In this document: one piece after another, positions 37,413 through 56,697 of the stretch
How positions within the stretch are numbered: the first letter of the stretch is position 1
How the letters are laid out: the number at the start of each line of letters is the position of its first letter
Virus record (IMG/VR): IMGVR_UViG_3300021141_000011
Coordinates: 1-56,697 of that record
Direction: 5' to 3' (one strand)
DNA: 56,697 nucleotides
Source of the DNA: a virus
Made by a program: the position numbers and the translations under genes
Notes under the pieces: model-generated
What the model was told of the DNA's origin: nothing
Databases searched by the model: none
The model's input: only the letters and a program-made list of their open reading frames with translations

Positions 37413-37430
37413 TTGGTAATATTCCAGCGG

Positions 37431-37455: not shown

Positions 37456-37476
37456 TATCTAGATTTGTTGTATAAT
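37448..37476 (+). promoter_or_regulatory. Sigma70-like promoter at the start of the accessory cassette
   Basis: TTTACT (37448-37453), 17 bp, TATAAT (37471-37476). The -10 is perfect; the -35 matches 4 of 6 bases and overlaps the terminator stem. Transcription would begin at about 37482-37484, on the ATG of the next gene, so the message may have no leader. Confidence 0.6.
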
Positions 37477-37481: not shown

Positions 37482-37787
37482 ATGGATACTGATGCTTTAA
37501 TTGCCCACGCACGAGTACGTTTTGATCATGTGGCTGCTCGCCGCGTACTAAAAGAAAAATACCAAGCCCGTATGTTGTTTGCCTACCGCGGCGGAATGTG
37601 GCGTGCTGATCCTGAACTGCTGGTACTGTTGGCCACTGTGCCTCCAGGCGATGCAGTGGTGTTGGACCTGTATGAAACTCCGGTACAGGTCAATCCTGAA
37701 CAACTACGAGGCCTGGCCATGCAGTTATGGCAAGAGCAAATGAATGCATGGCTAGTGGAACTTGATCAACAACGTCAACTACGATGA
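37482..37787 (+). CDS. Conserved hypothetical phage protein (101 residues)
   Basis: A small, mainly helical protein. ALIAHARVRFDHVAARRVLK (about 5-24), FAYRGGMWRADPELL (about 34-48) and VQVNPEQLRG (about 67-76) recall a short protein found beside fibre genes in T4-like cyanophages; its function is not known. It is the first gene after the terminator and seems to start at the very beginning of its transcript. Its stop overlaps the next start by 4 bp (ATGA). Confidence 0.65.
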   Translation: MDTDALIAHARVRFDHVAARRVLKEKYQARMLFAYRGGMWRADPELLVLLATVPPGDAVVLDLYETPVQVNPEQLRGLAMQLWQEQMNAWLVELDQQRQLR

Positions 37788-38596
37788 CCTGCGGTGCGTT
37801 AATATTTGCCTTCAACAACGAAGCCACCGACTATGTGAGCATGGCTGCCTGGAGTGCAGGTCGTATTCGCCACCATCTGGGCATACCAGTTGCTGTTGTG
37901 ACCAACAGCCAAGATCCTGCACTAAACAAAATGTTTGATCAAGTTATCTACGCAGAGCCTGAATCAGGTGGCACAAGATTTTTTGAAGACTACAACTCAA
38001 CCGTGACCTGGCACAATGCCGGTAGAGCAGATGCATACTCTCTCACTCCTTGGGAACAGACGCTAGTACTGGATGCAGACTATGTGGTGGCCAGTTCGCA
38101 GTTGAGTCTGGTGCTGGACAGTAATCGTGATTTCATGTGTCACGATCGTGCTTACGATATTGCAAAATCTCGATTGCTGGATGAACTAAACACATTTGGC
38201 GAACATCGCCTGCCCATGAGCTGGGCCACTGTGATGATGTTTCGCAAGAGCAACACTGCTGCCTACATATTTGACTGTATGCACATGGTGCGACACAACT
38301 GGGACCATTACAGAGCCTTGTACAAGATTCAGAAAAGTACCTATCGCAATGACTTTGCACTGAGCATTGCTCTAGGAATCATCAGCGGCGGCACCTGGAG
38401 AGTCGACAGTATTCCCTGGAGTTTGGCCAGTATCCTGCCCGAGTATGACCTGGAACAAATTGCCACTACTGACGAAACATTCAAAATTACGCATCGTGCG
38501 TCTGATGGAGGAAATTTGTACTGTGCCCTAAATGGCGTGGACTTTCATGCCATGGGCAAAAAACATCTAGGAGACATCATTGAAGCCCATAGCTGA
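37784..38596 (+). CDS. Glycosyltransferase-like protein (GT-A type suspected)
   Basis: 270 residues. The N-terminus (GALIFAFNNEATDYVSMAAW) looks like a first beta strand and helix, VAVVTNSQD (about 36-44) like the second strand, and TLVLDADYVV (about 89-98) has a DxD motif that would bind a metal and the sugar nucleotide. SWATVMMFRKS and FALSIALGI fit the GT8-like pattern of the second half. A transferase of an unknown sugar is the most reasonable reading. It starts in a 4-bp overlap, and its end overlaps the related gene downstream. Confidence 0.62.
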   Translation: MTCGALIFAFNNEATDYVSMAAWSAGRIRHHLGIPVAVVTNSQDPALNKMFDQVIYAEPESGGTRFFEDYNSTVTWHNAGRADAYSLTPWEQTLVLDADYVVASSQLSLVLDSNRDFMCHDRAYDIAKSRLLDELNTFGEHRLPMSWATVMMFRKSNTAAYIFDCMHMVRHNWDHYRALYKIQKSTYRNDFALSIALGIISGGTWRVDSIPWSLASILPEYDLEQIATTDETFKITHRASDGGNLYCALNGVDFHAMGKKHLGDIIEAHS

Positions 38597-39362
38597 ACAA
38601 GGCTACTTGATTGTGGCCTGTAATTCCACCACAGTTGACTATGTTGACTGTGCCAGATCTCTGGTCCGAACATTAAAAATGCACAATCCTGCTGCTGAAG
38701 TTTGCCTGGTCACAGATTCGGAATGCACCGATCCTGTGTTTGATTATGTGCGCTATATTACCAATGCGAATCCTGCTAATCCATACGAGAATGACTGGCA
38801 GGCGTTTTATCAAACTCCGTTTCGTGAAACCATCAAGCTGGAAGCAGACATGTGGATTGTGAGCAACATTGACCACTGGTGGGATATGTTTAGACACAGA
38901 GATCTTGTGATATCAACTGGCTGCAGAACCTGGAGAGATCAAGTCAGCCACAATAGACATTATCGAAAAATATTTGATGACAACAACTTGCCCGATGTAT
39001 ACAACGCTATCACCTACTGGCGTCTTAGTCAAACAGCACAGGAGTTTTTTGTACTGGTACGCAACATATTTGCTCATTGGGCAGAGTATCGTAAACTGTT
39101 GAAGTTTCCTGAAGATGTTCCATCCACTGATGTGGTGTATGCTATGGCAGCACAAATTATAGGTGCTGAATCAGTCACTTTGCCATTTGCAACATATCCC
39201 AAAATGGTGCATATGAAACAGCATCATGCAGGAACACGAACCGAAGACTGGACACAGGAGTTGGTATGGGAATACCGCAACAAGCAACTGCGGATACAAA
39301 CACACGCACAATGGGGAGCTTTTCATTATCATGTCAAACAAGCAGCCACTCAGTGTAGATGA
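38580..39362 (+). CDS. Glycosyltransferase-like protein, second copy type
   Basis: 260 residues, distantly similar in plan to the upstream protein. GYLIVACNSTTVDYVDCARS (8-27), VCLVTDSE and TIKLEADMWIV (about 79-89), where the DxD motif appears as EAD, are followed by YNAITYWRLSQ and TDVVYAMAAQ. The best start is TTG at 38580: AGGAG lies 7 bases upstream and no ATG exists before the first strand. The sugar and acceptor are unknown. The EAD in place of DxD could mean weak or altered metal binding. Confidence 0.58.
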   Translation: MKPIAEQGYLIVACNSTTVDYVDCARSLVRTLKMHNPAAEVCLVTDSECTDPVFDYVRYITNANPANPYENDWQAFYQTPFRETIKLEADMWIVSNIDHWWDMFRHRDLVISTGCRTWRDQVSHNRHYRKIFDDNNLPDVYNAITYWRLSQTAQEFFVLVRNIFAHWAEYRKLLKFPEDVPSTDVVYAMAAQIIGAESVTLPFATYPKMVHMKQHHAGTRTEDWTQELVWEYRNKQLRIQTHAQWGAFHYHVKQAATQCR

Positions 39363-39684
39363 TTTCTGGGCAGCACTCAGTGCCATGCCTGCACCTGAGC
39401 CGGTGTTCTACAGACTATACTACAACAGCGATGGTTATCCTGTGGCGTATTCAATGGAGGATATTCCGGGACTGTATGTTGAAATAGATCAGACTACCTA
39501 TAATGCAAACAACAAGCACATTAGAGTTGTTGACGGAAAGATTGTGACCCAACGGTTTAATAGAATAACTAAACTTGTGCCTGCTGACTCTGGATCCCCT
39601 TGTCATCCTGACAATGTCGCTGTAATCGTCAGTGAGCACAAGCCCCACCAAAAATGGACCAAGAAAACTTATGAACCAAATTGA
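39331..39684 (+). CDS. Conserved hypothetical phage protein (117 residues)
   Basis: Start chosen at the ATG at 39331. An open frame reaches back to 39226 but only over the previous gene. FYRLYYNSDGYPVAYSMED (26-44), GLYVEIDQTTY (47-57) and IRVVDGKIV (64-72) form a small beta-rich protein of a type I associate with T4-like cyanophages, without known function. It overlaps the genes on both sides (32 and 14 bp) and belongs to the same coupled series. Confidence 0.62.
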   Translation: MSNKQPLSVDDFWAALSAMPAPEPVFYRLYYNSDGYPVAYSMEDIPGLYVEIDQTTYNANNKHIRVVDGKIVTQRFNRITKLVPADSGSPCHPDNVAVIVSEHKPHQKWTKKTYEPN

Positions 39685-40597
39685 CATTGCAGATCTTGAT
39701 TGTGTATACTTGACCTATGATGAACCCAAGAAAGAAGAAAACTGGGTCAAGATCAGAAACATGATACCATGGGCTCGTCGTGTAGACGGAGTTCGAGGGT
39801 CTGACGCAGCACACAAGGCCGCAGCAGACGCCAGTACTACTGAGCGTTTTGTTCTGATTGACGGAGATAACATTCCTGATGCTAAATTTTTCAATCAAAC
39901 ATTGATATTTCCCACTGCTGATTATGAATCTGCTGTGTTTCGTTGGAAAGCAAGAAACGCCATCAATGGACTCATGTACGGCAATGGTGGACTGAGCTCA
40001 TGGACGCGGCAATATGTGCAAAACATGAACACACATGAAAACACAGACGGTCGTACAGAAACACAAGTAGAGTTTTGTTTTGATCCGTTATACTGGCCCA
40101 TGCACGACTGTTACTCAACCACCTATCCCAATGGATCAGCATTTCATGCCTGGCGTGCAGGATTCCGTGAAGGTGTAAAGATGTGCCTGAATCGTGGAGC
40201 AAGACCCACACTAGCAGAGTTCAAGGATCAAGTGCATCAACGAAATCTAGATCATCTCACAATATGGCACAACATAGGTGCAGATGTAGAATACGGTTAC
40301 TGGGCCATGGCCGGCGCTAGACAAGGCACCTACATGACCATGCTCACAAACTGGGATTACCTGCAGGTGCAGAACTTTGATGCACTAGCCGAACTATGGA
40401 ACACTGTGGAATCAGAACAGCCTGAGATTCTGGCCAATAGAATTGCTGACGAATTGCACACACAGTTGGATCTGCCCATGCACATGCTCACTGTAGAAGC
40501 CAGTGAATTCTTTAAACGACACTATAGATCAAACTGGCACAATCAAGGCGTAATGGTTCGTGAGATTGATGTAATACGACAACAAGAAGGATGGTAA
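39671..40597 (+). CDS. Conserved phage protein, glycosyltransferase-like
   Basis: 308 residues from the ATG at 39671, where similarity to other phage proteins seems to begin; an open frame to 39632 covers the upstream gene only. DCVYLTYDEPKKEENW (10-25), WARRVDGVRGSDAAH (33-47) and FVLIDGDNIP (about 59-68) look like the first half of a GT-A fold with a DGD metal site. FEEGVK-like FREGVKMCLNRG and YTMAG-like YWAMAGARQGTYM follow. The family is common in T4-like phages and often lies near sugar genes; its exact role is not known. Confidence 0.6.
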   Translation: MNQIDIADLDCVYLTYDEPKKEENWVKIRNMIPWARRVDGVRGSDAAHKAAADASTTERFVLIDGDNIPDAKFFNQTLIFPTADYESAVFRWKARNAINGLMYGNGGLSSWTRQYVQNMNTHENTDGRTETQVEFCFDPLYWPMHDCYSTTYPNGSAFHAWRAGFREGVKMCLNRGARPTLAEFKDQVHQRNLDHLTIWHNIGADVEYGYWAMAGARQGTYMTMLTNWDYLQVQNFDALAELWNTVESEQPEILANRIADELHTQLDLPMHMLTVEASEFFKRHYRSNWHNQGVMVREIDVIRQQEGW

Positions 40598-40598
40598 T

Positions 40599-41123
40599 AT
40601 GCTCAAACCAATTTATTTAAATTATGATTTTTCAAAGATTTTATCTGCTGACTATTCGCAACATGAGGGTAGTTGCATCAGTCATTTGGCCACAGAGTTA
40701 GCAGATGATTATGCGCCATACGGCGGTCTTCCAGGATCATACTGTTATGAAAACACAAAGATACATCAGTTATGGTGGACCAATGATGACATTGACTTTG
40801 ATGAGATTGGGCATAAATTAAACATGCAAGTGATTACTGTTAGTAGTATATGCCAGCCTCCGGGATGTATAGTTCCTTTGCATCGAGACACTTTTTATCA
40901 AATCAATCAACGTTGTCCAGAACGAACAGAACTCAAAGTCCGAGCCAACATCTATCTTGAAGATTGGAAACTAGGGCAGTTTATACAATATGACAATGAC
41001 ATCAGTGCTAAATGGAAAGTAGGTGAAGGATTTATGTGGGATTCTACTCATTTACATCTTTCAGCCAATGCAGGCATGCAAAACAAATATACCTTACAAG
41101 TATCAGGATTTTTAAAACAATAA
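40599..41123 (+). CDS. 2OG/Fe(II) oxygenase-like (cupin) protein
   Basis: 174 residues. LHRDTF (94-99) gives an HxD pair, and THLHLSANAG (150-159) gives the distal His; together they fit the 2-His-1-carboxylate iron site. KYTLQVSG (163-170) may supply the 2-oxoglutarate contact. GEGFMWDST precedes the distal His, as in aspartyl hydroxylase-like and small phage oxygenases. It would hydroxylate an unknown substrate using O2 and 2-oxoglutarate. It is within the sugar-enzyme series, so a sugar or nucleotide-sugar target is possible. Start at the ATG at 40599, with AAGGA upstream. Confidence 0.6.
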   Translation: MLKPIYLNYDFSKILSADYSQHEGSCISHLATELADDYAPYGGLPGSYCYENTKIHQLWWTNDDIDFDEIGHKLNMQVITVSSICQPPGCIVPLHRDTFYQINQRCPERTELKVRANIYLEDWKLGQFIQYDNDISAKWKVGEGFMWDSTHLHLSANAGMQNKYTLQVSGFLKQ

Positions 41124-41124
41124 G

Positions 41125-42054
41125 ATGTTCACTATAATTTGCAACAATGACAAAATTTGGAATCAACTCGAGTTGATCGACTATCTTGTCAAGAACCAAG
41201 ACAAAACAGTTGAGTTAGATATAAATCCTGAAGCAACATGCCTGACAAATCTTGGTGTATATCAATTATTAGATCTTTTTAGTTTTAAACAGGTGAACAT
41301 TTACACTTGGAATCCTTTAGAATACCACCCTAAATATCAAATCAAATTGGTAGATACAAATTATGTATTAAAAAAAACAATACAAATACCCACTCAACTG
41401 CAAACATGGGATCAAACAAAAATTTTCTTTTGTTTTTATGGTCGCCCTACTGCTGGTAGATTGGGGTTAGCAGGACATTTGTTCAAGAAGTACAACCAAC
41501 AAAGTTTAATTCATTTTTCAACAGACACCGACGACTATTATAAATTTGAATTTGATAAGCTATTGTCGTATGATACAGCTAGTGTACCCGACGCCAGTGC
41601 TCTGCTACAACATCTTCCAATTCTACAATCAAGCAACAATCAATATTCACCGCTTGAATATGATTTCCGTGACAAACTTACAGAGCTTTATCAAAGTATT
41701 TTAATAGATGTAGTAGGAGAAACTTTTGTTCAAGGAACAACATTTTTTCCTTCAGAAAAAACTACCCGGCCCATGCTACTGAAAAAACCTTTTGTAACAT
41801 TTGCATCACAAGATCATATGGCGTATCTTCGGCAGATGGGATTCCAAACATTCCACGGATTTTGGGACGAAGATTATGATGGATTTGAAGGGAGAGACCG
41901 GTTGATTCGGCTATATCAAGTTATTGGTGATGTAGCAAACCGGCCAATGAATGAATTAGTTGACATGTATAAAGAAATGCAACCAATCCTGGACCATAAT
42001 TACAATTTACTAATGTCTCAAAGTTACAACAAAACTATAACAAAAATAATATGA
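41125..42054 (+). CDS. Putative glycosyltransferase-related protein, repeated family member A
   Basis: 309 residues. Near residues 195-255 it has GETFVQG, SEKTTRPM, KKPFV, YLRQMGFQTFHGFWDEDYD, the shared motif of five proteins in this window. Upstream, FFCFYGRPTAGRLGL (about 98-112) is a degenerate form of the NGR.R.HR segment seen in member B. The late (T/S)EK motif resembles the donor-binding part of exostosin or GT10-type transferases, but I cannot confirm this. It lies directly ahead of a radical SAM gene with a 4-bp overlap. Confidence 0.6.
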   Translation: MFTIICNNDKIWNQLELIDYLVKNQDKTVELDINPEATCLTNLGVYQLLDLFSFKQVNIYTWNPLEYHPKYQIKLVDTNYVLKKTIQIPTQLQTWDQTKIFFCFYGRPTAGRLGLAGHLFKKYNQQSLIHFSTDTDDYYKFEFDKLLSYDTASVPDASALLQHLPILQSSNNQYSPLEYDFRDKLTELYQSILIDVVGETFVQGTTFFPSEKTTRPMLLKKPFVTFASQDHMAYLRQMGFQTFHGFWDEDYDGFEGRDRLIRLYQVIGDVANRPMNELVDMYKEMQPILDHNYNLLMSQSYNKTITKII

Positions 42055-43424
42055 GCAAAAGCGATTTTTTATCTTCAGCCGAAAAAATGCATGCCGAGCT
42101 TGGTCCTGCCTTGTGCTTGGCCAAATGGAAACAGGTCAGTTTTCATCTACCCACAGGGCTCAATAACTCATGCTATCATCCGCCCTTGCACCGAATACCC
42201 ATCGAAGACATTGGACGTAATCCTTCCGCATTGCATAACACTCCGCACAAGAAAGAACAGCGCAAACTCATGCTGGCAGGTGTCAAACCTGCGGAGTGTA
42301 GCTATTGCTGGAACATGGAAGCACAAAACAAGCTGAGTGATAGACACTACAGATCAGGCGAGCCCTGGGCCGCAGTAGATTTTGACAAAATAAAAAGCTC
42401 AACAGGAGATGAAGATGTTATTCCCAGTTATGTGGAAGTTAATTTTAACAATGTTTGCAACCTTGCATGCAGCTATTGCAGCCCGCAGTTCTCAAGCACT
42501 TGGCAGCAAGAAACTGATCGGCACGGTGCATATCCTACTCTGGTGCCTCATAACGCTCCTGAGCATTTTTCTGGTGACCGTAAGCCCATTCCAGCCCGTG
42601 ATCACAATCCTTATGTAGAAGCATTTTGGGAGTGGTGGCCCACCTTGTATCCTGAGCTGGAACACTTTAGAATGACCGGCGGCGAGCCCTTGTTGGATCG
42701 CAATACCTATAGAGTATTCGACTATGTGCTGGAGAACCCTAGTCCCAAATTACACCTGAATGTTACGTCAAACTTTAGTGTAGATGAAAAGTCATGGCAA
42801 AAATATCTAGCCTATGTGAAACAACTATGTGATGGGCGCATAGAACACTTCATGCAGTATGTGAGTCTAGATGCCTGGGGAGCTCAAGCAGAGTACATAC
42901 GTCACGGTCTGGACTTTGATCTGTTGTGGGATCGAGTTGACCAGTTTCTTACTCAAGTGCCTAGCTACAACAGCCTGACATTTATTGTCACAATGAACAA
43001 TCTCAGTGTGTCAAGCCTGGACCGATTGTTGGCAGGCATACTGGAACTACGTAAAAAACACAGTACAACATATCAGCGTGTGTGGTTTGATACTCCTGTG
43101 CTGCGTGAACCTGCATGGCAGAGCCTGCAAACACTGGGAGAATCTTATGCTGCACGGCTTGACACAGTCAAAGACTACATGGCTGCACACTTGGAAACAT
43201 CTGCAAATCCATTCAAAGGTTTCAAAGACTACGAAGTGGCCAGGCTAGACAGAGACATTGCCTGGATGCGATCAGGGCAAGCTGCGGATCAAAGTTGTAG
43301 TCAAGCAGACTTTTATCGTTTTTTCAGCGAAGCAGATCGCCGTCACGGAACAAATTTTTTACAAGTGTTTCCTGAAATGCGAGCCTGGTGGGCCGAATGT
43401 GAGTACCATGCTAGACAAAACTAA
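42051..43424 (+). CDS. Radical SAM protein with N-terminal module, C-x-H-P-P variant
   Basis: 457 residues. The N-terminal module has C22, C41 and C83-x2-C86. Where related proteins have CC, this one has CYHPP (41-45), so one cysteine is lost and a His could replace it as a ligand. The radical SAM motif is CNLACSYC (Cys136, 140, 143), then MTGGEPLLD. A C-terminal domain of about 150 residues follows. It is similar along its length to the radical SAM protein at 44550. It starts in a 4-bp overlap with member A and ends in an overlap with member B. The substrate is unknown. Confidence 0.85.
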   Translation: MSKSDFLSSAEKMHAELGPALCLAKWKQVSFHLPTGLNNSCYHPPLHRIPIEDIGRNPSALHNTPHKKEQRKLMLAGVKPAECSYCWNMEAQNKLSDRHYRSGEPWAAVDFDKIKSSTGDEDVIPSYVEVNFNNVCNLACSYCSPQFSSTWQQETDRHGAYPTLVPHNAPEHFSGDRKPIPARDHNPYVEAFWEWWPTLYPELEHFRMTGGEPLLDRNTYRVFDYVLENPSPKLHLNVTSNFSVDEKSWQKYLAYVKQLCDGRIEHFMQYVSLDAWGAQAEYIRHGLDFDLLWDRVDQFLTQVPSYNSLTFIVTMNNLSVSSLDRLLAGILELRKKHSTTYQRVWFDTPVLREPAWQSLQTLGESYAARLDTVKDYMAAHLETSANPFKGFKDYEVARLDRDIAWMRSGQAADQSCSQADFYRFFSEADRRHGTNFLQVFPEMRAWWAECEYHARQN

Positions 43425-44553
43425 TCTAGTAGTAGATACATTCAGTGTTGTATACGATTTACTAAAACCCTTTGCTAGTCAGGAGTTCTGGGAGTTTGCT
43501 GATCATGTGCCAGTCACGGGTGCAACCTATGTTATAGGACGCAAACAACTGGTAGAAAATAGACCCAGAATCAGAGCCATGTGCGAGTCTAACCAATACT
43601 GCATGGTGTTTGACGGTGCTGCTGAAGGATCCTGGACACTGATAGAACAAATACGCATGTTGGGCATAGAAGATCTTGTGTTGAGCAAGCAACTGCTGAT
43701 ACTCAGTGGCGGTGTCATGCCCGCTAAGTATCCTGCACTAACACATGATCATTTCTTTAATGTGATACTGGGCTATGACGAAAATCTACAGCAGATGGAA
43801 CGCATGCCCGAAATTTACAATACCACATCCAAGCCTTATGATTTTTTATTCCTAAATGGGCGAGCAAGGCCACACAGAAAATACCTGTGGGAACGATTGA
43901 ATCAACTGGGCCTGCTGGATCGGGCAATATGGTCCATGCTCGATGGAAGGCCCACGCTCAAAGGCACAGAGCTAACGCTCATGTCCGGCAGTGTCGATTT
44001 AATGACCACAGTGACACCTATACGTCAACTGGATTCCCAATACGAAGTTGCACGATACCAAAACAATTCAGTGGAGATAACCGAACCCAAACGGCAATTT
44101 ATCAAGCAAGACATGTTTCACAACACCTGGGGTGAAATTTATCTACAAACCGAACCCTATGCTGATACCTACTTTAGTCTGGTCACAGAAACCATATGCG
44201 AACACGGCAACAGTTTTCGAACTGAAAAGATTGCCAAACCGCTGGCACAAGGACATCCGTGGATCGTGGCAAGCAATGCTGGATTTTATCGTGATCTTCG
44301 CAACTTGGGATTTCAAACATTCGGGCATGTGATAGACGAGTCGTTTGATTTGATTGACAACACCCAAGATAGACTCAATCGAATTGTCGAAATTGTACAG
44401 GATCTTTGCAGTCAAGACCTTGCAAAATTTCTCAATGAGTGTTACACTGTATGTAAATACAATCAACAACATCTCGGTGAGTATCGAGAGCAACTACGCC
44501 GCGACTTTCCCCAGCGGTTGTTTGATTTTTTACAAGAGCATACCCTTCAGTGA
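43408..44553 (+). CDS. Putative glycosyltransferase-related protein, repeated family member B
   Basis: 381 residues from the ATG at 43408; a GTG at 43399 is a possible alternative, and the longer frame back to 43258 is inside the previous gene. FLFLNGRARPHRKYLWERL (about 146-164), then LLDRAIWSML, is the first half of the family pattern; VTETICEHGNSFRTEKI, then DLRNLGFQTF and VIDESFD, is the second. This is the fullest copy in the window and would be the best query for identifying the family. It is flanked by two related radical SAM genes, with 17- and 4-bp overlaps. Confidence 0.62.
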   Translation: MLDKTNLVVDTFSVVYDLLKPFASQEFWEFADHVPVTGATYVIGRKQLVENRPRIRAMCESNQYCMVFDGAAEGSWTLIEQIRMLGIEDLVLSKQLLILSGGVMPAKYPALTHDHFFNVILGYDENLQQMERMPEIYNTTSKPYDFLFLNGRARPHRKYLWERLNQLGLLDRAIWSMLDGRPTLKGTELTLMSGSVDLMTTVTPIRQLDSQYEVARYQNNSVEITEPKRQFIKQDMFHNTWGEIYLQTEPYADTYFSLVTETICEHGNSFRTEKIAKPLAQGHPWIVASNAGFYRDLRNLGFQTFGHVIDESFDLIDNTQDRLNRIVEIVQDLCSQDLAKFLNECYTVCKYNQQHLGEYREQLRRDFPQRLFDFLQEHTLQ

Positions 44554-47599: not shown

Positions 47600-48366
47600 A
47601 TATGTTTGGGTCATCTTATAAAAACTTGCTGGTGTCAGGGTGTAGTTTTACGCATAACAATTATCATACTCCGGTTTCATGGGCAAACAATCTAGCACAC
47701 TGGGCCGGATTAAACATTCACAATTTGGCAATACCAGGGGCTGGCAACACACATATCAAAAACAGCATTATATTATGGCTTGAACAACACAAACCCAATC
47801 CCAAGGACCTATTGATTATGGTCATGTGGAGCGGAATCGAGCGTGTGGATTGGATAACTGATCCAACACTTAGCAACTTTAAAAAGGCATACCAATTTAC
47901 CTATGATTATTCAGACTGCACTGAATTAGTAGTAGGTGGCAATTGGTGGGCAAATCGTCAAGTATCACTGGTAGAACAAGCTCTTAAAGAATATACAAAA
48001 TTTCAAAACAATCAAAGTTTGGCATTGACTTCCTGGCTAGCCATGACACAGTTAACTGATTATCTCAGACAAAGAGATTATACGTTTTACTACACTGCCT
48101 ACCAGAATTTATGGTGTGAGGGTGATAAAACCAATCAATGGATCAACTATGGCATAGAACTTGAAAAACTTAATCTGATATTAGATAATGCTCCTTGGTT
48201 GTTTTTTGATCACAAGCATTTTCTAGGAACATGGGTAAAAACACATAATCATCTGTGGGAAGATAATCTACATCCTTCACATATAGGACACGAACTATGG
48301 TGTCAAGAAGTGTTGATACCGTTGCTGATAGAAAAAAAAGCGTTATATGAACTTACCACACAATAA
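47596..48366 (+). CDS. SGNH/GDSL-type hydrolase, first copy
   Basis: 256 residues. Block I is SGCSFT (14-19, nucleophile Ser17), block III fits GAGN (about 52-55), and block V is DNLHPSHIGH (about 227-236) with the Asp and His of the triad. The family removes or transfers acyl groups, often acetyl groups on sugars. There is no signal peptide, so it acts inside the infected cell. It lies between two radical SAM genes in the coupled series. Either ATG at 47596 or the Met two codons later could be the start. Substrate not known. Confidence 0.75.
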   Translation: MNMFGSSYKNLLVSGCSFTHNNYHTPVSWANNLAHWAGLNIHNLAIPGAGNTHIKNSIILWLEQHKPNPKDLLIMVMWSGIERVDWITDPTLSNFKKAYQFTYDYSDCTELVVGGNWWANRQVSLVEQALKEYTKFQNNQSLALTSWLAMTQLTDYLRQRDYTFYYTAYQNLWCEGDKTNQWINYGIELEKLNLILDNAPWLFFDHKHFLGTWVKTHNHLWEDNLHPSHIGHELWCQEVLIPLLIEKKALYELTTQ

Positions 48367-49561: not shown

Positions 49562-50453
49562 ACTGGTATTGCAACCGGAACAATTTACCAGTTTTACAAG
49601 CTGGTATCTGGAACCGTTGTGGCAAGAATATTTCAATATTGAGACTTACGATGAATCTAAGACCTACAGTAAAAATTCATTGTTTGTGTTCTGGTGGATG
49701 AATGCTCGAGACCCATTGGCAAATCAACTGTTGAATCGAGGTTATAAAGTTATTGTTGATAATTTATGGGAAGAGCCTAATACTTCATTTGCCCGGTTTT
49801 ATCAACTGTCAAACGCAAACTGGTTCAGATGGAACGAAGCATTATGGTGGCAAGCTCTAGGATATCATCAATACAGCGCAGAAAAAACCTATAAAAAAAT
49901 TGCATTGATGCCCATACACAGAGTTAGTCCACGTCGTGACCGAATTGTTGAAGAATTACATCCCTGGCTAGAACACATGTTGTGGAGTTACAAAAATAAC
50001 AGACTGCCCAATGATGAATATACCATTGACAATTTAGACGTTAATCAACGTTTTATGAATCCGCAATGGTATAATGATACCTGTATAAATTTAGTAGTGG
50101 AAACTGCCCAGCATGGTCAACTTTTTCGTCTGACAGATAAAACCTACAAGTCATGTGCTTTTTATCAGCCCATGTTGATAATAGGGCAATCAGATTCGTT
50201 GACATTTCTAAGAGACCAAGGGTTTGAAACATTTGATAATATATTTGACGAAAGCTATGATCAGGAATCTAATTTTGAAAAAAGATTAAAACTAGTGATA
50301 GAAAATCTAAGTCTAGTCACACAGGAGCCATATTCTCCAATTACCTGGCAAAAACTACAGCACAATCACAATCATTTTTTCAATGAACAATTATGTAAAC
50401 AAGGTATAATAACACAAATCATTGAACCTCTAATAGAATATGCAGAATCTTGA
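49554..50453 (+). CDS. Putative glycosyltransferase-related protein, repeated family member C
   Basis: 299 residues from the ATG at 49554 (the frame extends 5 codons back to a TTG). The second-half motif reads VVETAQHGQLFRLTDKTYK, then FLRDQGFETF and IFDESYD. The first half (IALMPIHRVSPRRDRIVEEL) is a weak form of the NGR.R.HR segment. The TDK in place of TEK and the loss of the Pro after it make this a divergent copy. It directly follows a radical SAM gene with an 8-bp overlap and precedes a second SGNH gene. Confidence 0.6.
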   Translation: MAKLVLQPEQFTSFTSWYLEPLWQEYFNIETYDESKTYSKNSLFVFWWMNARDPLANQLLNRGYKVIVDNLWEEPNTSFARFYQLSNANWFRWNEALWWQALGYHQYSAEKTYKKIALMPIHRVSPRRDRIVEELHPWLEHMLWSYKNNRLPNDEYTIDNLDVNQRFMNPQWYNDTCINLVVETAQHGQLFRLTDKTYKSCAFYQPMLIIGQSDSLTFLRDQGFETFDNIFDESYDQESNFEKRLKLVIENLSLVTQEPYSPITWQKLQHNHNHFFNEQLCKQGIITQIIEPLIEYAES

Positions 50454-50472
50454 ATCAAGGAAACTAATTTAA

Positions 50473-51129
50473 ATGAAATACAATCGAGTTTTTGCGTTTG
50501 GAGACAGTTTTACCTATGGGCATGAATTAAGTGATTGTCCTACTAATAACTGGCCGACTCCGAGCAATCTTTCATACGGGGGATTAGTAGCTAATAAGTT
50601 ATCTGCAGAATATCATTGCCATGCCATAGGAAGCTATGCCAACAACGCAATTTCTAGAAGAATAATACAAGCACTTCCAATATTAACACAGCATGACATG
50701 GTATTAGTTATGTGGACTGCCACTGTGAGACACGAGTTACTTTTACAGGATGAAGGGTGGATAAGTCTTTTGCCAACTAGCACCATGCCAATGTCAATAG
50801 AATATTTTAAACACATTGATACAACCCCACAGTATCATATTGACAAGACTTTAAAAGAAATATACATTTCTCAACAACTTTTAACCTCAGCAGATATACC
50901 ACATATCTTTATGAGTTCAATGACCGATTTGTCTCAAGGAATACAAAATCAAGAAAATTTACTGTCAACAAAACTTGATCTTGACAAATGGATATTTCTT
51001 GACAACGGCCTTGGGTTTGTCGAATGGTCAAAAAATATATTAAATCTTCAATTTAGTGGGCATCCTCGAGATGCCGCCCATGAAGCATTAGCAAAAAAAA
51101 TACTAGCCAAAATACATGACCAAACCTGA
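50473..51129 (+). CDS. SGNH/GDSL-type hydrolase, second copy
   Basis: 218 residues. Block I is GDSFTYGHE (10-18, Ser12), NNAISRR provides the block III Asn, and SGHPRDAAHEALA (about 193-205) provides the distal His. It differs strongly from the first SGNH protein in length and motif details (GDSFT against GCSFT), so the two probably act on different bonds. No signal peptide. AAGGA ahead of the ATG and a 19-bp gap make this one of the few genes in the cassette with its own ribosome site. Confidence 0.76.
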   Translation: MKYNRVFAFGDSFTYGHELSDCPTNNWPTPSNLSYGGLVANKLSAEYHCHAIGSYANNAISRRIIQALPILTQHDMVLVMWTATVRHELLLQDEGWISLLPTSTMPMSIEYFKHIDTTPQYHIDKTLKEIYISQQLLTSADIPHIFMSSMTDLSQGIQNQENLLSTKLDLDKWIFLDNGLGFVEWSKNILNLQFSGHPRDAAHEALAKKILAKIHDQT

Positions 51130-52405
51130 TTCACTATGCTTGGCCCCCTGGGTCCACACCTATCTTTCGCCGCAGACCGAACGCAGAATGTGCTGTGCTT
51201 CGCGAGAGCCTGCACAGAATTTTGCGCAGTACATAGACACAGCCGCAGGCACAGGACGGTATATTCCCATCACACTAGAGCAACACTGGAATGGTGAACA
51301 CATGCGAAGTGTGCGCAGACGCATGCTAGCTGGAGAAACCTTGCCCGAGTGCGAAGTGTGCAATGACCAACTGCTGAACACTGATGTGTACCGCACCTAT
51401 TTTGAACACCTGTTCCGCCACAAACTGCCCGAAGTAATCAGCAGTACTGCCCCAGACGGCAGCACCACTATGCAGCCCGTGAGCTGGGATTATCGTTTTA
51501 GCAATCTGTGCAACTTCAAGTGTAGAATGTGCGGTGATATGTTGAGCAGCGCCTGGGAAAGCGAACAGCGTCAGCATAAAATGATTGACTGGACCAATCC
51601 CAAGAACGCCTGGATGCAGCCTGAGATTCGCCAAGAGATTGCTGTGTTTCAGGATACTCAGATTGAAAAAGAATTTTCAGATGCTGTAGAGCAACATCGT
51701 GTGGAAGAAGTGTACTGGGTAGGCGGCGAGCCCTTGATGTATGAACAGCACTGGCGCTACATGGCTCGTATTGTGGAACTCGATGATGGCCACAGAGTAT
51801 ATGCCAGGTACAATACCAATCTCAGCAGAGTTGACTACGGTGGGCGTAATTTATTTCGTGATATACTGGCTCACATGCGCGATTGGCAAATATGCGCAAG
51901 TCTGGACGGAGTTGAAGCCACAGGAGAATACATTAGAACAGGACTTGACTACGATCACTGGCTTGCGAACTTCCGTCAAGGATTAGAGTACAGTTCGCAT
52001 CCAAGACAAATGCGCATAGACTTTACACTAACTCTACCGGGTATGACACAGGTCCTAGCGGTACAGCAACTAGCCCAAGAATTGGGTGTGCAACTGCTGG
52101 CCAAAGTGGTGTTTAGTTTCAGTCCAGATATCATAATGAGCCCACTGGCATTACCAAGAGAAATACTGCATCCTTGGCTGGACGAGCTGATTGATGTTAC
52201 TTCAGGTGCCATGCGTGACGTGCTGGTGCAGTTGAAATCACGTCCCACATTTGACGAACAATGGCCAGACACCTATGCTTCGGGTCTTGCAAAAGGCCGG
52301 GCATATATGTTACAATTAGAAAGCATACGCAAATCATCAACTTCGATGGCTGATATCCTGTCAGCAAGACCTGCGGTGCTAGAATGGTGGAACCAACATG
52401 CTTGA
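51116..52405 (+). CDS. Radical SAM protein with N-terminal CC module
   Basis: 429 residues. C8, CC26-27 and C79-x2-C82 form the auxiliary-cluster module; the core carries CNFKCRMC (Cys132, 136, 139) and WVGGEPLMY. LCLAPW at the start fits the family opening. It overlaps the SGNH gene upstream by 14 bp and the uncharacterised gene downstream by 8 bp. It is the last radical SAM gene of the series and sits nearest the carbamoyltransferase. The substrate is unknown. Confidence 0.86.
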   Translation: MTKPDSLCLAPWVHTYLSPQTERRMCCASREPAQNFAQYIDTAAGTGRYIPITLEQHWNGEHMRSVRRRMLAGETLPECEVCNDQLLNTDVYRTYFEHLFRHKLPEVISSTAPDGSTTMQPVSWDYRFSNLCNFKCRMCGDMLSSAWESEQRQHKMIDWTNPKNAWMQPEIRQEIAVFQDTQIEKEFSDAVEQHRVEEVYWVGGEPLMYEQHWRYMARIVELDDGHRVYARYNTNLSRVDYGGRNLFRDILAHMRDWQICASLDGVEATGEYIRTGLDYDHWLANFRQGLEYSSHPRQMRIDFTLTLPGMTQVLAVQQLAQELGVQLLAKVVFSFSPDIIMSPLALPREILHPWLDELIDVTSGAMRDVLVQLKSRPTFDEQWPDTYASGLAKGRAYMLQLESIRKSSTSMADILSARPAVLEWWNQHA

Positions 52406-53435
52406 TACTATACGGATGGACCTGAGAAGCACTGACGATCAAGTGATGTCAGTGTACATTGATGTAGAGGATAACAGTCTCTCACGCAAATGGTTGGCAG
52501 CATTGAATCAGTTGATTCAGAATCAGAATCATCTAGAAAAGAATTACTGTTGGATAGGATGGGCAAACAGCAAACGTGATCCAGAATACATCTGTACACA
52601 AATTAATCGCAGCATACATGCTGTTAATTCAGCAGGTCTAGGATATGTTATAAAAGACTTTTTCACTCCTGCCAACACAATTGATATCAATCTTGGTATT
52701 AATCATGCCCACATGAATCAATTACACAGATATTTTGAAGACCTTCAAGGGGTATCGGGCGCAATGAGTCCGTATTACACAGCCGCAGATGATACAACTC
52801 GTTGGCACATACGTCAGTTGAATTTGCTGTGTCATGAACTAGAAAGTCTGGTATTAAGCATTCGCAAGTTAAAAACTGCTCCTGTATGGCAGCGACCATC
52901 GCAACTGATGTGTTGGCTGCAAGCACCACGTTTTGAATTAGATGCTGAAGATTATGAATTGTTCGGAATAGAAACAATAAATCGATCTTTGGGCGGTGTG
53001 TATGCGGGAGTAAACAAAGCTGTGGGTAAACATCATTGGGAAGTGTTCACAGACGAAGGCCGAGACAGTCGTGTGAATGAACTGGTAACCAGTACACTTA
53101 GATCACAAACTCAAGCAGCCGGCGATTTTGATATAGAATGGGCCAATGATCCGGGTGCATTTCCGTGGCAGATTTTGGCACTCAAAGAATTTCGCGAATG
53201 GTTAGTGGCCAACGGCTTTGATCCTGAAGATAAAAGTTTGACAATTGGCCATCCTAAGGTAGCACAAGTGGATCTTGTGCGCAGCTTTGGCACAACAGAT
53301 TATGAAAAAATATGGTCGCAGTTATACAAGCACCAGGATGTGCATAGAATAAGTACTAGCACCGCTACTGCAACATACGAATATCACTGGAATGATCCAG
53401 ACTATGATCTACAACAAATAAGGAAATTGAAATGA
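52398..53435 (+). CDS. Uncharacterised phage protein (345 residues)
   Basis: I do not recognise the family. INHAHMNQLHRYFEDLQG (about 96-113) and WHIRQLNLLCHELESL (about 135-150) are His-rich helical segments, and FPWQILALKEFREWL (about 252-266) is another conserved-looking helix. The C-terminus YEYHWNDPDYDLQQI is polar. There are no membrane segments or signal peptide. It overlaps the radical SAM gene by 8 bp and the 33-codon gene by 4 bp, so it is likely made with the modification enzymes. The histidines could bind metal, but that is a guess. Confidence 0.65.
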   Translation: MLDTIRMDLRSTDDQVMSVYIDVEDNSLSRKWLAALNQLIQNQNHLEKNYCWIGWANSKRDPEYICTQINRSIHAVNSAGLGYVIKDFFTPANTIDINLGINHAHMNQLHRYFEDLQGVSGAMSPYYTAADDTTRWHIRQLNLLCHELESLVLSIRKLKTAPVWQRPSQLMCWLQAPRFELDAEDYELFGIETINRSLGGVYAGVNKAVGKHHWEVFTDEGRDSRVNELVTSTLRSQTQAAGDFDIEWANDPGAFPWQILALKEFREWLVANGFDPEDKSLTIGHPKVAQVDLVRSFGTTDYEKIWSQLYKHQDVHRISTSTATATYEYHWNDPDYDLQQIRKLK

Positions 53436-53533
53436 CCTGGCTAAAGAACTTATGGGCAAGAATTACCCTGGAATATCGTTACCGAAAGAAATTAAAAGAA
53501 TTGAGAAAGCGTGATCCTTTTATCTATAAATGA
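53432..53533 (+). CDS. Very small basic protein (33 residues)
   Basis: Missed by length filters but well supported: AAGGA lies 7 bases before the ATG, and it overlaps both neighbours by ATGA (53432-53435 and 53530-53533). The protein is a basic amphipathic helix (TWLKNLWARI, then RKKLKELRKRDPFIYK). The RDPFIYK ending recalls short proteins in T4-like cyanophages. It may bind nucleic acid or a partner protein, or mainly couple translation into the carbamoyltransferase. Function unknown. Confidence 0.6.
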   Translation: MTWLKNLWARITLEYRYRKKLKELRKRDPFIYK

Positions 53534-55011
53534 ATATACTAGGAGTCTCGGCAGGGTTTCATGACGCTGCTGCCACAGTGCTGAGTTCACAAGGTGACGT
53601 GTTGTTTGCTGGACACAGCGAACGCTACAGCAAACGCAAGAATGATGCCGACTTCTGTCCAGGGCTCTTGGATGATATCTTGCCGTATGCACCTGCGCAT
53701 GTGGCCTATTATGAACGTCCCTGGGCCAAGCAACTGCGTCAACTTTATGCTGGACAAGGCATTGACTGGAACAAACTCACAGTAGGGCAAATACTCAAGT
53801 CTCAGCTGGGCGACAGTATTGAACCAGAGCGAGTATCTAGTCACAGTCATCACCTGAGCCATGCGGCTTCAGGATTTCAAACCAGCCCGTTTGATCGTGC
53901 CACAGTCGTGGTAATAGATGCAGTGGGCGAATGGGAAACAGTTACTATATGGGGCGCAGAATATGATTCAACGGGTCGTGCAATTTATAAAAAACTGTGG
54001 CAACAAAATTACCCACATTCCATCGGACTCTTTTATAGTGCAGTCACTGGCCGCGTTGGCCTACACCCACTAGACGAAGAATACATACTAATGGGCATGG
54101 CTGCTTATGGCAATCCGGGCATCAGCGAACTCATGAGAATGAATCTGGTGCAGGATGAATGGGAAATTAGATTCAAAGAAAATCTACACACAGGACTAGA
54201 TCCCAAGTATCTGGAACATTTTAGTGACGCAGATCTGGCAGCAGGGGCACAGGATCTAGCGGAAGACTTGATTCTAAACGTCATGATGCGAGCTCGAAAC
54301 TTCAAGTTCAGCAGCAATCTAGTTTATCAAGGCGGGGTTGCACTCAATTGCAGTGCCAACAGACGAATAGGAAATTATTTTGAAAACATTTGGATTATGC
54401 CTTGCCCTGGTGATGCTGGCTCTAGCCTGGGAGCCGCTGCGTTGGCTTATGGTCAGCGGGTTAATTGGACTAGTGCTTTTCTTGGCCATGATATCCCCGG
54501 TGCTTATCCTGTTAATCTTCTACTTGATAATCTTGTTACCACTGGCATTGTTGGCGTGGCCTCAGGTCGTGCAGAGTTTGGACCTAGAGCCCTTGGACAT
54601 AGAAGCCTGCTTGCAGACCCCAGAGGACCAGACATAAAAGATCGTGTGAATGAAATCAAACGACGTCAACAGTTCCGACCATTTGCTCCTGTGATACTGG
54701 AAGAACTGGCTGATCAGTACTTTATCATGCCTCGTGGTTGGGAACACAGTCCTTACATGCAGTCAGTGAGTCATTGTCGCAGTCCTGAACTGTATCCTGC
54801 TATTGTGCATCATGATGGCACCAGCAGAGTACAAACTGTATCAAAAGATTCGCCATCGGGCATTAGAGAACTCTTGGAAAAATGGTATGTCATGACCGGC
54901 TGTCCCATGCTGCTGAACACCAGCCTGAACATACGCGGTGAACCCATGGTCAACGATCGCGCGGACGCAGATCGATTCGAAGCCTTGTACGGTGTTACTG
55001 TGTGTAGCTAA
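53530..55011 (+). CDS. Carbamoyltransferase (NodU/CmcH family)
   Basis: 493 residues. GVSAGFHDAAATVL (5-18), SHSHHLSHAASGF (about 104-116) with the metal-binding histidines, and VVVIDAVGEWET are N-terminal domain motifs. GGVALNCSANR, PCPGDAGSSLGAA and GRAEFGPRALGHRSLLADPR are C-terminal ATP-site motifs. The family makes carbamoyl-adenylate from carbamoyl phosphate and ATP and transfers the carbamoyl group to a hydroxyl, typically on a sugar. It is the strongest hint that the cassette decorates a sugar-like acceptor. It overlaps the 33-codon gene by 4 bp. Its end overlaps the convergent gene by 17 bp, with no terminator visible. Confidence 0.9.
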   Translation: MNILGVSAGFHDAAATVLSSQGDVLFAGHSERYSKRKNDADFCPGLLDDILPYAPAHVAYYERPWAKQLRQLYAGQGIDWNKLTVGQILKSQLGDSIEPERVSSHSHHLSHAASGFQTSPFDRATVVVIDAVGEWETVTIWGAEYDSTGRAIYKKLWQQNYPHSIGLFYSAVTGRVGLHPLDEEYILMGMAAYGNPGISELMRMNLVQDEWEIRFKENLHTGLDPKYLEHFSDADLAAGAQDLAEDLILNVMMRARNFKFSSNLVYQGGVALNCSANRRIGNYFENIWIMPCPGDAGSSLGAAALAYGQRVNWTSAFLGHDIPGAYPVNLLLDNLVTTGIVGVASGRAEFGPRALGHRSLLADPRGPDIKDRVNEIKRRQQFRPFAPVILEELADQYFIMPRGWEHSPYMQSVSHCRSPELYPAIVHHDGTSRVQTVSKDSPSGIRELLEKWYVMTGCPMLLNTSLNIRGEPMVNDRADADRFEALYGVTVCS

Positions 55012-56167
55012 GACGGTCAATCAAGCGAGCTAGACTGGGCCTGGAACGCTGTATAAACAATTGTTGGTTGTGTATCAAATCGGGCATGCATTTCAAATAC
55101 CATTGATGCAGGTCCTGCTGTTTGATCTGCTGCAAAGTTTGTTTTACAGCAAACCAACGTTGAGTATTATCTACTATGCTATCGTAACTGTTGTCAATCA
55201 CTGAATCAAATGTACGATATCCTGCAGAACGCAAGGCCGCCAAACTGCCCACGGGTCCTGCTATCACAAATGGTTGTCCAAACTTCATGCACTTGTAGGT
55301 TTTTTCAGTGATAAAAGCACCACCGCTTTGATCCACATCAAACAAGGTTTCGATTGAGATGTGGCAATAGCTGTTAAGATAAAGATCAGTATTGATCATT
55401 CTGTGATCGTTGTGTGCATCTGAATCAGGACCGTCACAGTAGTATGGACCATTTGCCAGGAACAACTGTAGTTTTTTGACCCAGTCCGAGTCAGACTTTA
55501 TGCTAATAGGGTTGTTGTCCTCCAGATCATCTATAGTGCAATCAGTATTGTAACTCCACAGGCTGTTGTTTAGAATACCATCGGCATGCAGATCACTCAT
55601 GATGCTGCCGCGCCACCATTTGTGTATGCGATTCAGTGCAGTAAAGTCATACTGTCTAGGAAGATCAGTTACAGGAGTGTAACCTTGACGACGATTAACA
55701 TAACTCAAAAAGTATTCGTGATCTGGAAAGTAATGGCATCTAGCCACAGAATTGGCCACAGTATTGGCACTCACAAACAAATAACAATCCACAGGCAGCT
55801 GATGTTGCACACACAAACTATCCAGACGTTCTCGTATGCGATCAGGATTGTCCCCTTCGTGATAGTAGAACAATACTTTTATTTCTTTCAGCTGCAATTT
55901 AGCAATAGTGTTGAGTTTCATTAGTCCAAAATAATCACAATCAAAATCGTGCCAGCCCAGCGCAACCGGATACCAACTACCTGCGGGTGCTTGATCCACT
56001 GTGCTGCTGGTCCAAACGGCCCCTGCATGTTTGAGATATACTAGCAGTCTGAATGCAATTGTTCTGGGCCAGGTGTTGTCAAAGTCGTCTGGCCCTAGAC
56101 CTAGATCAGCAAGATTAGGATATCCTAATTCAGGATCACTCATGGTGTCGTAGCAAAAATTTATCAT
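54995..56167 (-). CDS. Putative glycosyltransferase-related protein, repeated family member D
   Basis: 390 residues. The C-terminal third has the family motif: ISIETLFDVDQSGGAFITEK, then GQPFVIAG, ALRSAGYRTFDSVI and DNSYD. The first 200 residues (VALGWHDFDCDYFGL, IKVLFYYHEGDN, CYLFVSANTVANS) form a separate domain that looks like the first half of a GT-B fold. It runs opposite to the rest of the cassette and ends inside the carbamoyltransferase stop region. Its start overlaps member E by 4 bp, so D and E form one minus-strand unit. GT activity is inferred. Confidence 0.62.
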   Translation of the reverse strand: MINFCYDTMSDPELGYPNLADLGLGPDDFDNTWPRTIAFRLLVYLKHAGAVWTSSTVDQAPAGSWYPVALGWHDFDCDYFGLMKLNTIAKLQLKEIKVLFYYHEGDNPDRIRERLDSLCVQHQLPVDCYLFVSANTVANSVARCHYFPDHEYFLSYVNRRQGYTPVTDLPRQYDFTALNRIHKWWRGSIMSDLHADGILNNSLWSYNTDCTIDDLEDNNPISIKSDSDWVKKLQLFLANGPYYCDGPDSDAHNDHRMINTDLYLNSYCHISIETLFDVDQSGGAFITEKTYKCMKFGQPFVIAGPVGSLAALRSAGYRTFDSVIDNSYDSIVDNTQRWFAVKQTLQQIKQQDLHQWYLKCMPDLIHNQQLFIQRSRPSLARLIDRLSYTQ

Positions 56168-56697
56168 GTATCTATCTGTGCCAGCATGTTGTTTAGTTCA
56201 GTCCACAATACTGCTTCAAAACCACCCTTGTAGAAATGATTCCAGTTGTGTTCTATTACTTCTTGAGCTGCATCAAACAACTGTTGCTTGGCTTTGGTAG
56301 ACAGCACGTCTAGACTCTTTAGCAGTTCAGCAATGCGAGTAATACGCAAATCGTCCTCGGCCAAATCATAACTCTCGTCCCAGATGTTGCCAAAGGTTCG
56401 GAAACCGTAACTGCGCAGGTATTCGAGACTACCACGTGTGCCCACAACAACAAATGGCATACCTAGAGCAATGGGCTTGAATGTCTTTTCAGTCAAATGA
56501 TGTCTACGTCCTGTAGCCACAGTTTCAGTCACAAGATATAGTAGGCTTTCGGCTGCCTCATCAAACAAGCTGAGCCAACAGCTATGCATGGGATGGTCGG
56601 TTTCATTCACAAAGTTGATGGGCAAGGTCTGTGCCGCAAATACAGATTCAATGTCAGGATATTTTGCTGCCAAGGGCTTGATGGCATGGTGTATGCT
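56164..56697 (-). CDS. Putative glycosyltransferase-related protein, repeated family member E (5' end cut by window)
   Basis: The frame is open to the right edge, so this is a C-terminal piece of at least 177 residues. It has VTETVATGRRHHLTEKTFKP, then GMPFVVVG, YLRSYGFRTF and IWDESYD, the cleanest copy of the shared motif. The ending (IEHNWNHFYKG, VLWTELNNML) is similar in style to members A and B. A TTG at 56673 is not a credible start because the coding pattern continues upstream. It overlaps member D by 4 bp. Confidence 0.62.
   Translation of the reverse strand, partial: SIHHAIKPLAAKYPDIESVFAAQTLPINFVNETDHPMHSCWLSLFDEAAESLLYLVTETVATGRRHHLTEKTFKPIALGMPFVVVGTRGSLEYLRSYGFRTFGNIWDESYDLAEDDLRITRIAELLKSLDVLSTKAKQQLFDAAQEVIEHNWNHFYKGGFEAVLWTELNNMLAQIDT

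Follow-up and report, generated by a model that had tools for sequence, protein, structure and literature searches.

An ordered cassette of radical SAM, glycosyltransferase and carbamoyltransferase genes in large freshwater phages: a probable glycan pathway

Described phage clusters and the cassette of the window

Host-recognition clusters that combine tail fibre genes with genes of glycosyltransferases (GTs) and, in some genomes, cassettes of radical S-adenosylmethionine (SAM) enzymes were described for pelagimyophages, T4-like phages of SAR11 (PMC7029224). The available part of that paper portrays large GT-rich regions beside the tail fibres, in which GT8 is the most represented family. A T4-like marine genome, TARA_ERS488813_N000010, was reported to carry 12 radical SAM genes and an A-type iron-sulfur (Fe-S) carrier (PMC5332604, available part). 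We analysed IMG/VR virus record IMGVR_UViG_3300021141_000011 (56,697 bases; "the window" designates this whole record), which from position 37482 onwards holds a cassette of radical SAM, GT-like and carbamoyltransferase genes. This cassette is a set common to large (jumbo) freshwater phages, in which it adjoins tail fibre genes. Its enzymes probably constitute a phage pathway that builds a glycan and tailors it. Among the roles suggested in the initial annotation this is the best supported one: the genes of GT-B and GT8-like glycosyltransferases and of a carbamoyltransferase keep a fixed order, and many relatives have genes for an amidinotransferase, DegT and an epimerase nearby.

The gene coordinates and order given initially agreed with the open reading frames (ORFs) of the window, as did the counts of five radical SAM genes, five genes of a family named here TEK/DESYD (TEK for short), three other GT-like genes and one carbamoyltransferase gene. 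Proteins of the window match baseplate-wedge, tail-fibre-like, SMC/metallophosphatase and late-sigma families; by these matches the phage is classed as a T4-like tailed phage (the T4 gene labels of these matches are in part our own presumption). The cassette is also present in a second record of 261,673 bases (loci L008 and L047), where the query proteins are 100% identical and where it runs on beyond the window end. A third record from another metagenome (L009, L048) holds both query proteins at 100%. A chance chimera can thus be dismissed as the origin of the window assembly.

The locus belongs to a kind already known, since tail-module clusters of GTs and radical SAM enzymes in T4-like phages appear in the available part of PMC7029224 and the window likewise has tail fibres, GTs and radical SAM genes beside the tail module of a putatively T4-like phage. 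With this paper and the genome with 12 radical SAM genes published, the initial statement that no phage system of this composition had been described was too strong. The pelagimyophage cluster is presented there as a non-syntenic island, whereas the core of the present cassette is collinear in 66 of 75 loci. It further differs by its five orthologous radical SAM genes, its GT-B family (the one member tried had no match among isolate phages) and the amidinotransferase of many relatives. The T4-like genome of PMC5332604 likewise combines many radical SAM genes with an Fe-S assembly protein, so that, on the available part of that 2017 paper, the link to Fe-S supply is not new. The word glycosyltransferase is absent from the main text of the paper, and its available part reports neither a cassette nor synteny; the large records studied here also carry IscU, which the available part of that paper reports for other genomes.

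Partial resemblances are found in other phages. Synechococcus phage ACG-2014f encodes a distant homologue (5e-5) of the GT8-like proteins of the cassette (GT2 below) among a GDP-mannose dehydratase, epimerases and GTs, in a sugar cluster some 4 kb away from a tail fibre gene, but that stretch has no annotated radical SAM gene. The carbamoyltransferase relative nol of cyanophage P-SSM2 sits, in contrast, among replication and purine genes. Moraphages encode glycosyltransferases but the main text of PMC12619734 contains neither "radical" nor "carbamoyl", and none of five search terms is present in the available part of the jumbo-phage review PMC13282480. No description of this cassette beyond PMC7029224, and none of a viral glycan pathway built on a radical SAM array, was found in the open-licence literature searched. 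Within that literature, what is new comprises the ordered core, the identification of the TEK family as GT-B (by its modelled fold), the amidinotransferase, the conserved promoter and terminator, and the link to a Ser/Thr-rich tail-module protein (f6).

Gene order and enzyme families

Two scans with radical SAM queries yielded 119 viral loci, or 76 once near-identical ones were removed; the window's twin record (L047) was left out of the collinearity and motif counts, which thus cover 75 loci. The recurring order starts on the left with a tail fibre gene (f8) followed by f6, f9, GT2, GT2, f7, GT3, a variable slot, radical SAM A, TEK and radical SAM B and C. It continues on the right with a slot, radical SAM D, a slot, radical SAM E, f4, the carbamoyltransferase, a slot that often holds an amidinotransferase, two TEK genes, a GT3 fusion and DegT. 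In the 66 collinear loci all core genes found follow this order in either direction; the five radical SAM proteins are reciprocal best hits in window order in 62 of the 75. All 14 core genes are present in 27 loci, many of the others being cut by contig ends. The genes are thus not the non-syntenic singletons that the initial annotation had named as the contrary outcome. Among loci in window orientation and order, no insert was found between f9 and the first GT2 (0/40), between the two GT2 genes (0/55), between f7 and GT3 (0/53) or between radical SAM E and f4 (0/58), while genes are often inserted between GT3 and radical SAM A (46/62) and between the carbamoyltransferase and TEK (33/44). By position, the SGNH-like, oxygenase-like and extra TEK genes of the window are slot genes. 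A divergent clade (8 of the 76 loci, e.g., L037 and L041) has at most four radical SAM genes facing an f8-f6-f9-GT2-GT2-GT3 block, with no TEK, f4 or carbamoyltransferase gene in the stretch.

Loci picked by radical SAM necessarily hold radical SAM genes and f6 was for this reason taken as a second bait. Its 45 non-redundant loci of at least 18 kb all have GT2 and GT3, 44 have radical SAM genes and 40 have TEK; with GT2 as bait, radical SAM genes were found in 43 of 43 loci of at least 18 kb. Note that these counts rest on the best 80 of at least 444 and at least 543 confirmed relatives, with shorter loci dropped (45 of 65 and 43 of 69 kept), that many of the loci are contigs of the first set, including the window's twin, and that genes more than 10 kb away, such as f4 and the carbamoyltransferase gene, can hardly show.

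The five cassette radical SAM proteins, A (42051–43424, 308.5 bits), B (44550–45887, 289.7 bits), C (45884–47599, 394.8 bits over residues 173–569, preceded by an additional N-terminal domain), D (48347–49561, 334 bits) and E (51116–52405, 287.5 bits), all encoded on the plus strand, score 287–395 bits against NCBIfam model NF033640 (N_Twi_rSAM, N-terminal twitch), whose cut-off is 170. The CxxxCxxC motif is kept in all 405 cluster members of at least 330 amino acids and a CxxC in the N-terminal domain, ahead of the radical SAM core, in 386 of them. Taken with the carbamoyltransferase motifs (53/53, see below), this means that the core has not lost most of its catalytic residues, the second outcome that would have spoken against the initial proposal. 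Ratios of nonsynonymous to synonymous substitution (dN/dS), computed where possible against three relatives with dS near saturation, range from 0.06 to 0.47 and are mostly below 0.3; by pN, TEK and f7 evolve fastest, and the slowest genes include radical SAM E and f4. Three radical SAM genes of the window had been overlooked, at 1348, 2444 and 6407 (minus strand); the last (6407–7564) encodes a sixth N_Twi_rSAM protein (213.8 bits) outside the cassette.

The initial suggestion of a role against host defence found no support. Ten cassette proteins match viperin in PADLOC through the radical SAM core alone, with at most 34.6 bits, and the prokaryotic viperin model NF038283 (cut-off 180 bits) is not reached (at most 37.3 bits). 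A viperin-type defence role was therefore discarded.

In eleven large records NF033640 is matched 7 to 21 times per record; by a manual count among the matches listed, 5 to 16 per record exceed the cut-off. IscU is encoded in six of the eleven, which are all six of at least 225 kb, and an A-type carrier in seven; the 261,673-base record, near-identical to the window, carries IscU and IscA. These phage proteins would help to supply the clusters of the radical SAM enzymes.

Twitch/SPASM domains are typical of peptide maturases, and the below-cut-off NCBIfam matches of the cassette enzymes include peptide-maturase radical SAM/SPASM families. This would fit a system akin to those of ribosomally synthesized and post-translationally modified peptides, in which a single peptide or virion protein would be cross-linked or epimerised by the radical SAM enzymes and also glycosylated by the transferases. 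It is an improbable explanation: no small conserved gene (ORFs of at least 60 amino acids) lies between the overlapping radical SAM genes, the only small conserved genes, f9 and f7, are placed among the transferases, and the carbamoyltransferase, amidinotransferase, DegT and epimerase genes are of sugar type.

The five TEK proteins of the window form one BLAST cluster. They comprise the core copy (43258–44553, start probably further downstream), two slot members (41125–42054 and 49539–50453), and two minus-strand genes, 54995–56167 and 56164–56697, the latter cut by the window end (422 amino acids in the longer record). No credible Pfam match exists among 70 family members (seven families each match one or two of them, best E 0.0093), nor does any window copy match a PHROG at 1e-3. 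An alignment of the 70 sequences has R186, G316 and N367 invariant and E273, E288, K289, P293 and F320 nearly so; the E-K pair presumably resembles the donor-binding pair of GT10 enzymes. Regular expressions of our own, which undercount, retrieved the TEK motif in 172 of 198 sequences and RxxR..E..EK in 106 of 198. An AlphaFold2 model of the 54995 member has a predicted local distance difference test score (pLDDT) of 89.5. Foldseek placed SenB (GT-B) first at 6e-5 and T4 beta-glucosyltransferase second; VIA-align ranked a GT10 alpha-1,3-fucosyltransferase with GDP first (Z 13.7, 4.5 Å, 267 residues) and T4 beta-glucosyltransferase next (Z 13.1), a tie since the two Z values lie within 1. As many as 341 of 997 chains reach a Z of at least 8, and the top rows among the matches listed are glycosyltransferases. 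By its modelled fold the TEK family, the core copy included through this other member, is a GT-B glycosyltransferase. Membership of the GT10 family PF00852 was tried by sequence and rejected (no match in 5 phage records at E≤10; none of the 70 members at E≤0.05).

The second-best TEK fold family being T4 beta-glucosyltransferase, and carbamoyltransferases being known from DNA hypermodification pathways, the cassette could be imagined to decorate DNA in the manner of phages whose modified bases receive sugars or carbamoyl groups. We consider this very improbable. None of 12 records has Tet_JBP at E≤1 and none of 6 has the thymidylate-synthase family, to which base hydroxymethylases belong, the records being possibly incomplete, and the cassette sits in the tail module.

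A glycan as the product is consistent with the remaining enzymes. The two GT2 proteins (GT2a, 37784–38596; GT2b, 38580–39362, phrog_1903) form one cluster whose profile matches glycogenin (E 9.3e-5 over about 100 residues), hence their designation as GT8-like; DxD is present in 89 of 123 members, and a Pfam scan of 23 members returned no GT family. The gene at 53530–55011 encodes with certainty, judging from its sequence, a NodU/CmcH-type O-carbamoyltransferase. Both Pfam domains, Carbam_trans_N and Carbam_trans_C, score far above cut-off (127 and 165 bits), the HH..H (metal-site His) and EFGPRALGxRS motifs are kept in 53 of 53 members, the protein matches phrog_1601, and its PDB matches are NovN, GdmN and TobZ. 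Relatives also encode DegT, an amidinotransferase related to AGAT and StrB1, an NDP-sugar epimerase and several methyltransferases, FkbM among them. The amidinotransferase Cys motif is kept in 33 of 34 members (a D..H pattern found in 0 of 34 was ill chosen and was dropped). In the 261,673-base record, DegT aminotransferase and NDP-sugar epimerase genes follow shortly past the window end. Elsewhere the phage encodes an amidinotransferase closer to StrB1 (1.3e-46) than to AGAT (8.5e-22) and a protein of the UDP-glucose/GDP-mannose dehydrogenase family. It may fairly be supposed that aminated sugars are then amidinated and carbamoylated.

Among the conserved genes of other type, f4 (52398–53435) has a good model (pLDDT 88.4) with a VIA Z of 8.5 to cyclophilins, near the tool's stated background, and Foldseek gave no match under E 0.4; a cyclophilin-like barrel is for these reasons only possible. 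The small protein f7 (39226–39684, start probably downstream) has relatives in 55 of 77 sets with a median length of 122 amino acids. All cassette genes from f9 to the carbamoyltransferase gene are on the plus strand, and overlaps of 4–20 bp had been noted between most plus-strand neighbours. Ten of the 17 junctions overlap by 4–23 bp, and of the others four are short gaps and three are overlaps of 53, 137 and 167 bp that probably reflect starts called too early.

Candidate acceptor, transcription and target

The gene preceding the cassette, f6 (36435–37412, plus strand), encodes the protein with the highest serine plus threonine (S+T) content, 28.9%, among the 152 ORFs of at least 200 amino acids in the phage; the family median is 30.4%. 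An f6 protein of the divergent clade (L041) shares 29% identity with a protein of Pseudomonas phage PA5oct that is annotated ESI-MS/MS (electrospray tandem mass spectrometry) and is encoded two genes from the long tail fibre subunit. This match suggests that f6 is probably a virion protein. A unit in phage order is also found in the bacterial phylum to which a genome titled Bdellovibrionia belongs, on a bacterial contig (locus L157; genome G177, contig 21, 118001–138000), where the genes run radical SAM, GT3 (minus strand), radical SAM, f6, f9, GT2, GT2, a gene of 163 codons, GT3 and three radical SAM genes. There f6 is again the most S+T-rich protein (first of 35). The GT unit and f6 thus stay joined in separate settings. 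By reading, bacterial housekeeping genes lie upstream on that contig, and the unit may be an integration remnant, a gene transfer or an assembly join.

The proposed soluble, phage-encoded pathway would assemble a glycan and modify it chemically. The GT8-like and TEK transferases would add sugars, as fold and motif suggest, and the carbamoyl- and amidinotransferases, with DegT and the epimerase beyond the window, would make and decorate amino- or deoxy-sugars according to their families. At least five radical SAM enzymes, which have an additional Fe-S cluster domain, might edit individual residues, for example by dehydrogenation, epimerisation or deoxygenation. Accessory enzymes are swapped in a few slots, so that the product would differ between phages. 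Linkage designates f6, which heads the unit f6-f9-GT-GT-f7-GT, as the most likely acceptor. This fuller proposal, a glycan pathway acting on f6, is made tentatively, our doubts slightly outweighing our confidence. Its most detailed form, a slot-based writer with fixed soluble GTs and radical SAM editors, swappable accessory enzymes and its own Fe-S supply that would place a radical-edited, partly aminoglycoside-like glycan with guanidino and carbamoyl groups on f6, is rather unlikely to hold as a whole.

Environmental phages carry radical SAM genes by the dozen without known role. Ordered orthologues with intact motifs, tied to GTs and to a tail-module protein, provide a testable substrate class and candidate acceptor, and such an ordered array would surprise a specialist. 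If the proposal is true, phage sugars can be as chemically elaborate as those of antibiotics, and the swappable slots would explain how closely related phages come to show hosts or rivals different surfaces.

Transcription signals lie between f6 and the cassette. An intrinsic terminator hairpin (37430–37452) overlaps a sigma70-type promoter (TTTACT, 17 nt spacer, TATAAT with the −10 at 37471; whole region 37430–37476). Of 49 regions that separate f6 from the following gene, 42 contain a hairpin with a T run after it. One region without a −10 was dropped from the promoter counts; the other 48 have TATAAT (34), TACAAT (9), TAAAAT (3) or TAATAT (2), preceded in 44 by a −35 (TTTACT, TAGACT or TTTACC) exactly 17 nt upstream, which in the window overlaps the terminator. 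The first cassette gene, f9 (37482–37787, 101 codons, family in 48 of 77 sets), starts with an ATG positioned 5–7 nt past the −10 in 42 of 48 regions, and its message would therefore be nearly leaderless. The T4 late promoter sequence TATAAATA does not occur in the window. The motif [AG]TAAATA precedes f8 in all 13 cases with enough upstream sequence (the f8 family has 49 members), 0 of 48 f6 starts and 6 of 45 f9 starts (shuffle expectation 1.3). The terminator and the sigma70-type promoter argue that the cassette is probably read by a host-type RNA polymerase, separately from the late virion genes. Such a separation makes a purely late role coupled to the virion less likely, and it is chiefly for this reason that confidence in the target is not higher.

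An own sigma70-type promoter, a terminator and a near-leaderless first gene would also suit the chief alternative, in which, early in infection, the same enzymes remodel an envelope glycan of the host (O-chain or core) so that receptors are hidden from other phages or the cell surface is altered. Modification of the O-chain was inferred for the GT-rich clusters of pelagimyophages in the available part of PMC7029224, heptose genes (GmhA-like, HldE-like and GT9-like, by reading) are found no more than about 15 kb away from some bacterial relatives, and the related cassette of Vibrio phage K566 is near an annotated PagP. However, no membrane transferase, flippase, polymerase or ligase was seen and the cassette has no multi-segment protein: by a simple hydropathy scan its enzymes in the window have no hydrophobic segment, and f9 has one. 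In the 205 kb beyond the window a crude hydropathy scan (window covered from 34.3 kb on) revealed no flippase- or polymerase-like protein, and a single ORF exceeds four hydrophobic segments, which resembles a TctA transporter. All 45 long loci, moreover, have GT2 and GT3 close to the tail protein f6. We regard modification of the host envelope as unlikely, although it is the strongest of the alternatives to a glycan placed on f6.

Several other points speak against a glycan pathway directed to f6. It is built on sequence, gene order and models rather than on biochemistry, and the assignment of the radical SAM enzymes to tailoring of the sugar comes solely from the company of their genes. The promoter and terminator are no less compatible with a role on the host early in infection. 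The next S+T-rich ORF of the phage is close to f6 (0.279 vs. 0.289), and tail proteins are often Ser/Thr-rich in general. Several assignments are weak. GT3 (39632–40597, start probably downstream, family in 73 of 77 sets) is called GT-A-like from a DGDN motif found in 61 of 94 members by one of the undercounting expressions, its best PDB match having an E of 0.26. The two SGNH genes and the 2-oxoglutarate (2OG) oxygenase-like gene listed initially do exist, but their family matches all lie below Pfam cut-offs. The 2OG/Fe oxygenase-like slot gene (40599–41123, family in 4 of 77 sets) matches Asp_Arg_Hydrox with 15.2 bits against 22.6. The SGNH-like slot genes match DUF6071 at 1e-4 (47596–48366) and Lipase_GDSL with 16.2 bits (50473–51129), and in their family the block I Ser is present in 16 of 21 members and D..H in 12 of 21. 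The amidinotransferase family (fam10), present in 33 of 49 loci of at least 20 kb, has no member in the window. The last points come from bacteria, studied in the phylum that contains a genome titled Bdellovibrionia, where N_Twi_rSAM proteins above cut-off occur in 55 of 191 genomes, often clustered. A sugar family of the cassette is found in 6 of 20 such regions, hand-picked from long contigs, and in 1 of 20 controls (p 0.046), a weak difference in which the phage-like unit of L157 is one of the six; TEK was found in none of the 20. The radical SAM family is thus not tied to sugars everywhere and extends beyond this pathway.

Relatives in bacteria and isolate phages, and other features of the phage

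Among 290 genomes of the same bacterial phylum f6 was found in one. Of 18 bacterial stretches with the TEK pattern two were confirmed, and one bacterial island has TEK, GT3 and SGNH genes together with thirteen ORFs recognised by the radical SAM model. No match was found among isolate phages for one TEK member, f4, GT3, GT2a (37784) or f9; relatives of the carbamoyltransferase occur in 134 of 50,697 phage records. The isolates Vibrio phages K566 and K567 come near to the cassette: K566 has four clustered radical SAM genes, two of them above the NF033640 cut-off, in a run with proteins that read as glycosyltransferases, at the end of which lies the protein with the highest S+T content (first of 25). 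The transferases match no cassette family model, and TEK, carbamoyltransferase and f4 were not found in the stretch examined. The PagP-annotated gene (lipid A acylation) near the K566 cassette is at 24984–25433 (locus L142). In Marine virus AG-345-D19 (L143, 2585–7953), amidinotransferase, SGNH (two), carbamoyltransferase and radical SAM genes stand in a row; this short single-cell record represents a marine relative of the cassette's right end.

The 205 kb examined of the 261,673-base record, which lie beyond the window, encode 29 tRNAs and one tmRNA. By reading, the record also has TctC/TctA-like transporter (71809–73989), PstS-like (213385–214380) and porin-like (232149–233030) genes; from the transporter, porin and PstS-like ORFs we take the host to be perhaps a betaproteobacterium. 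Two more radical SAM proteins are encoded outside the cassette at 82456–83940 and 105142–107067, both on the minus strand, with B12-binding matches of which one is above and one below the Pfam cut-off. In the window itself, a SegE-like GIY-YIG homing endonuclease gene is found at the start (305–733, minus strand) and a protein full of GGGIGGLLS repeats is encoded between baseplate-like genes at 14989–16296.

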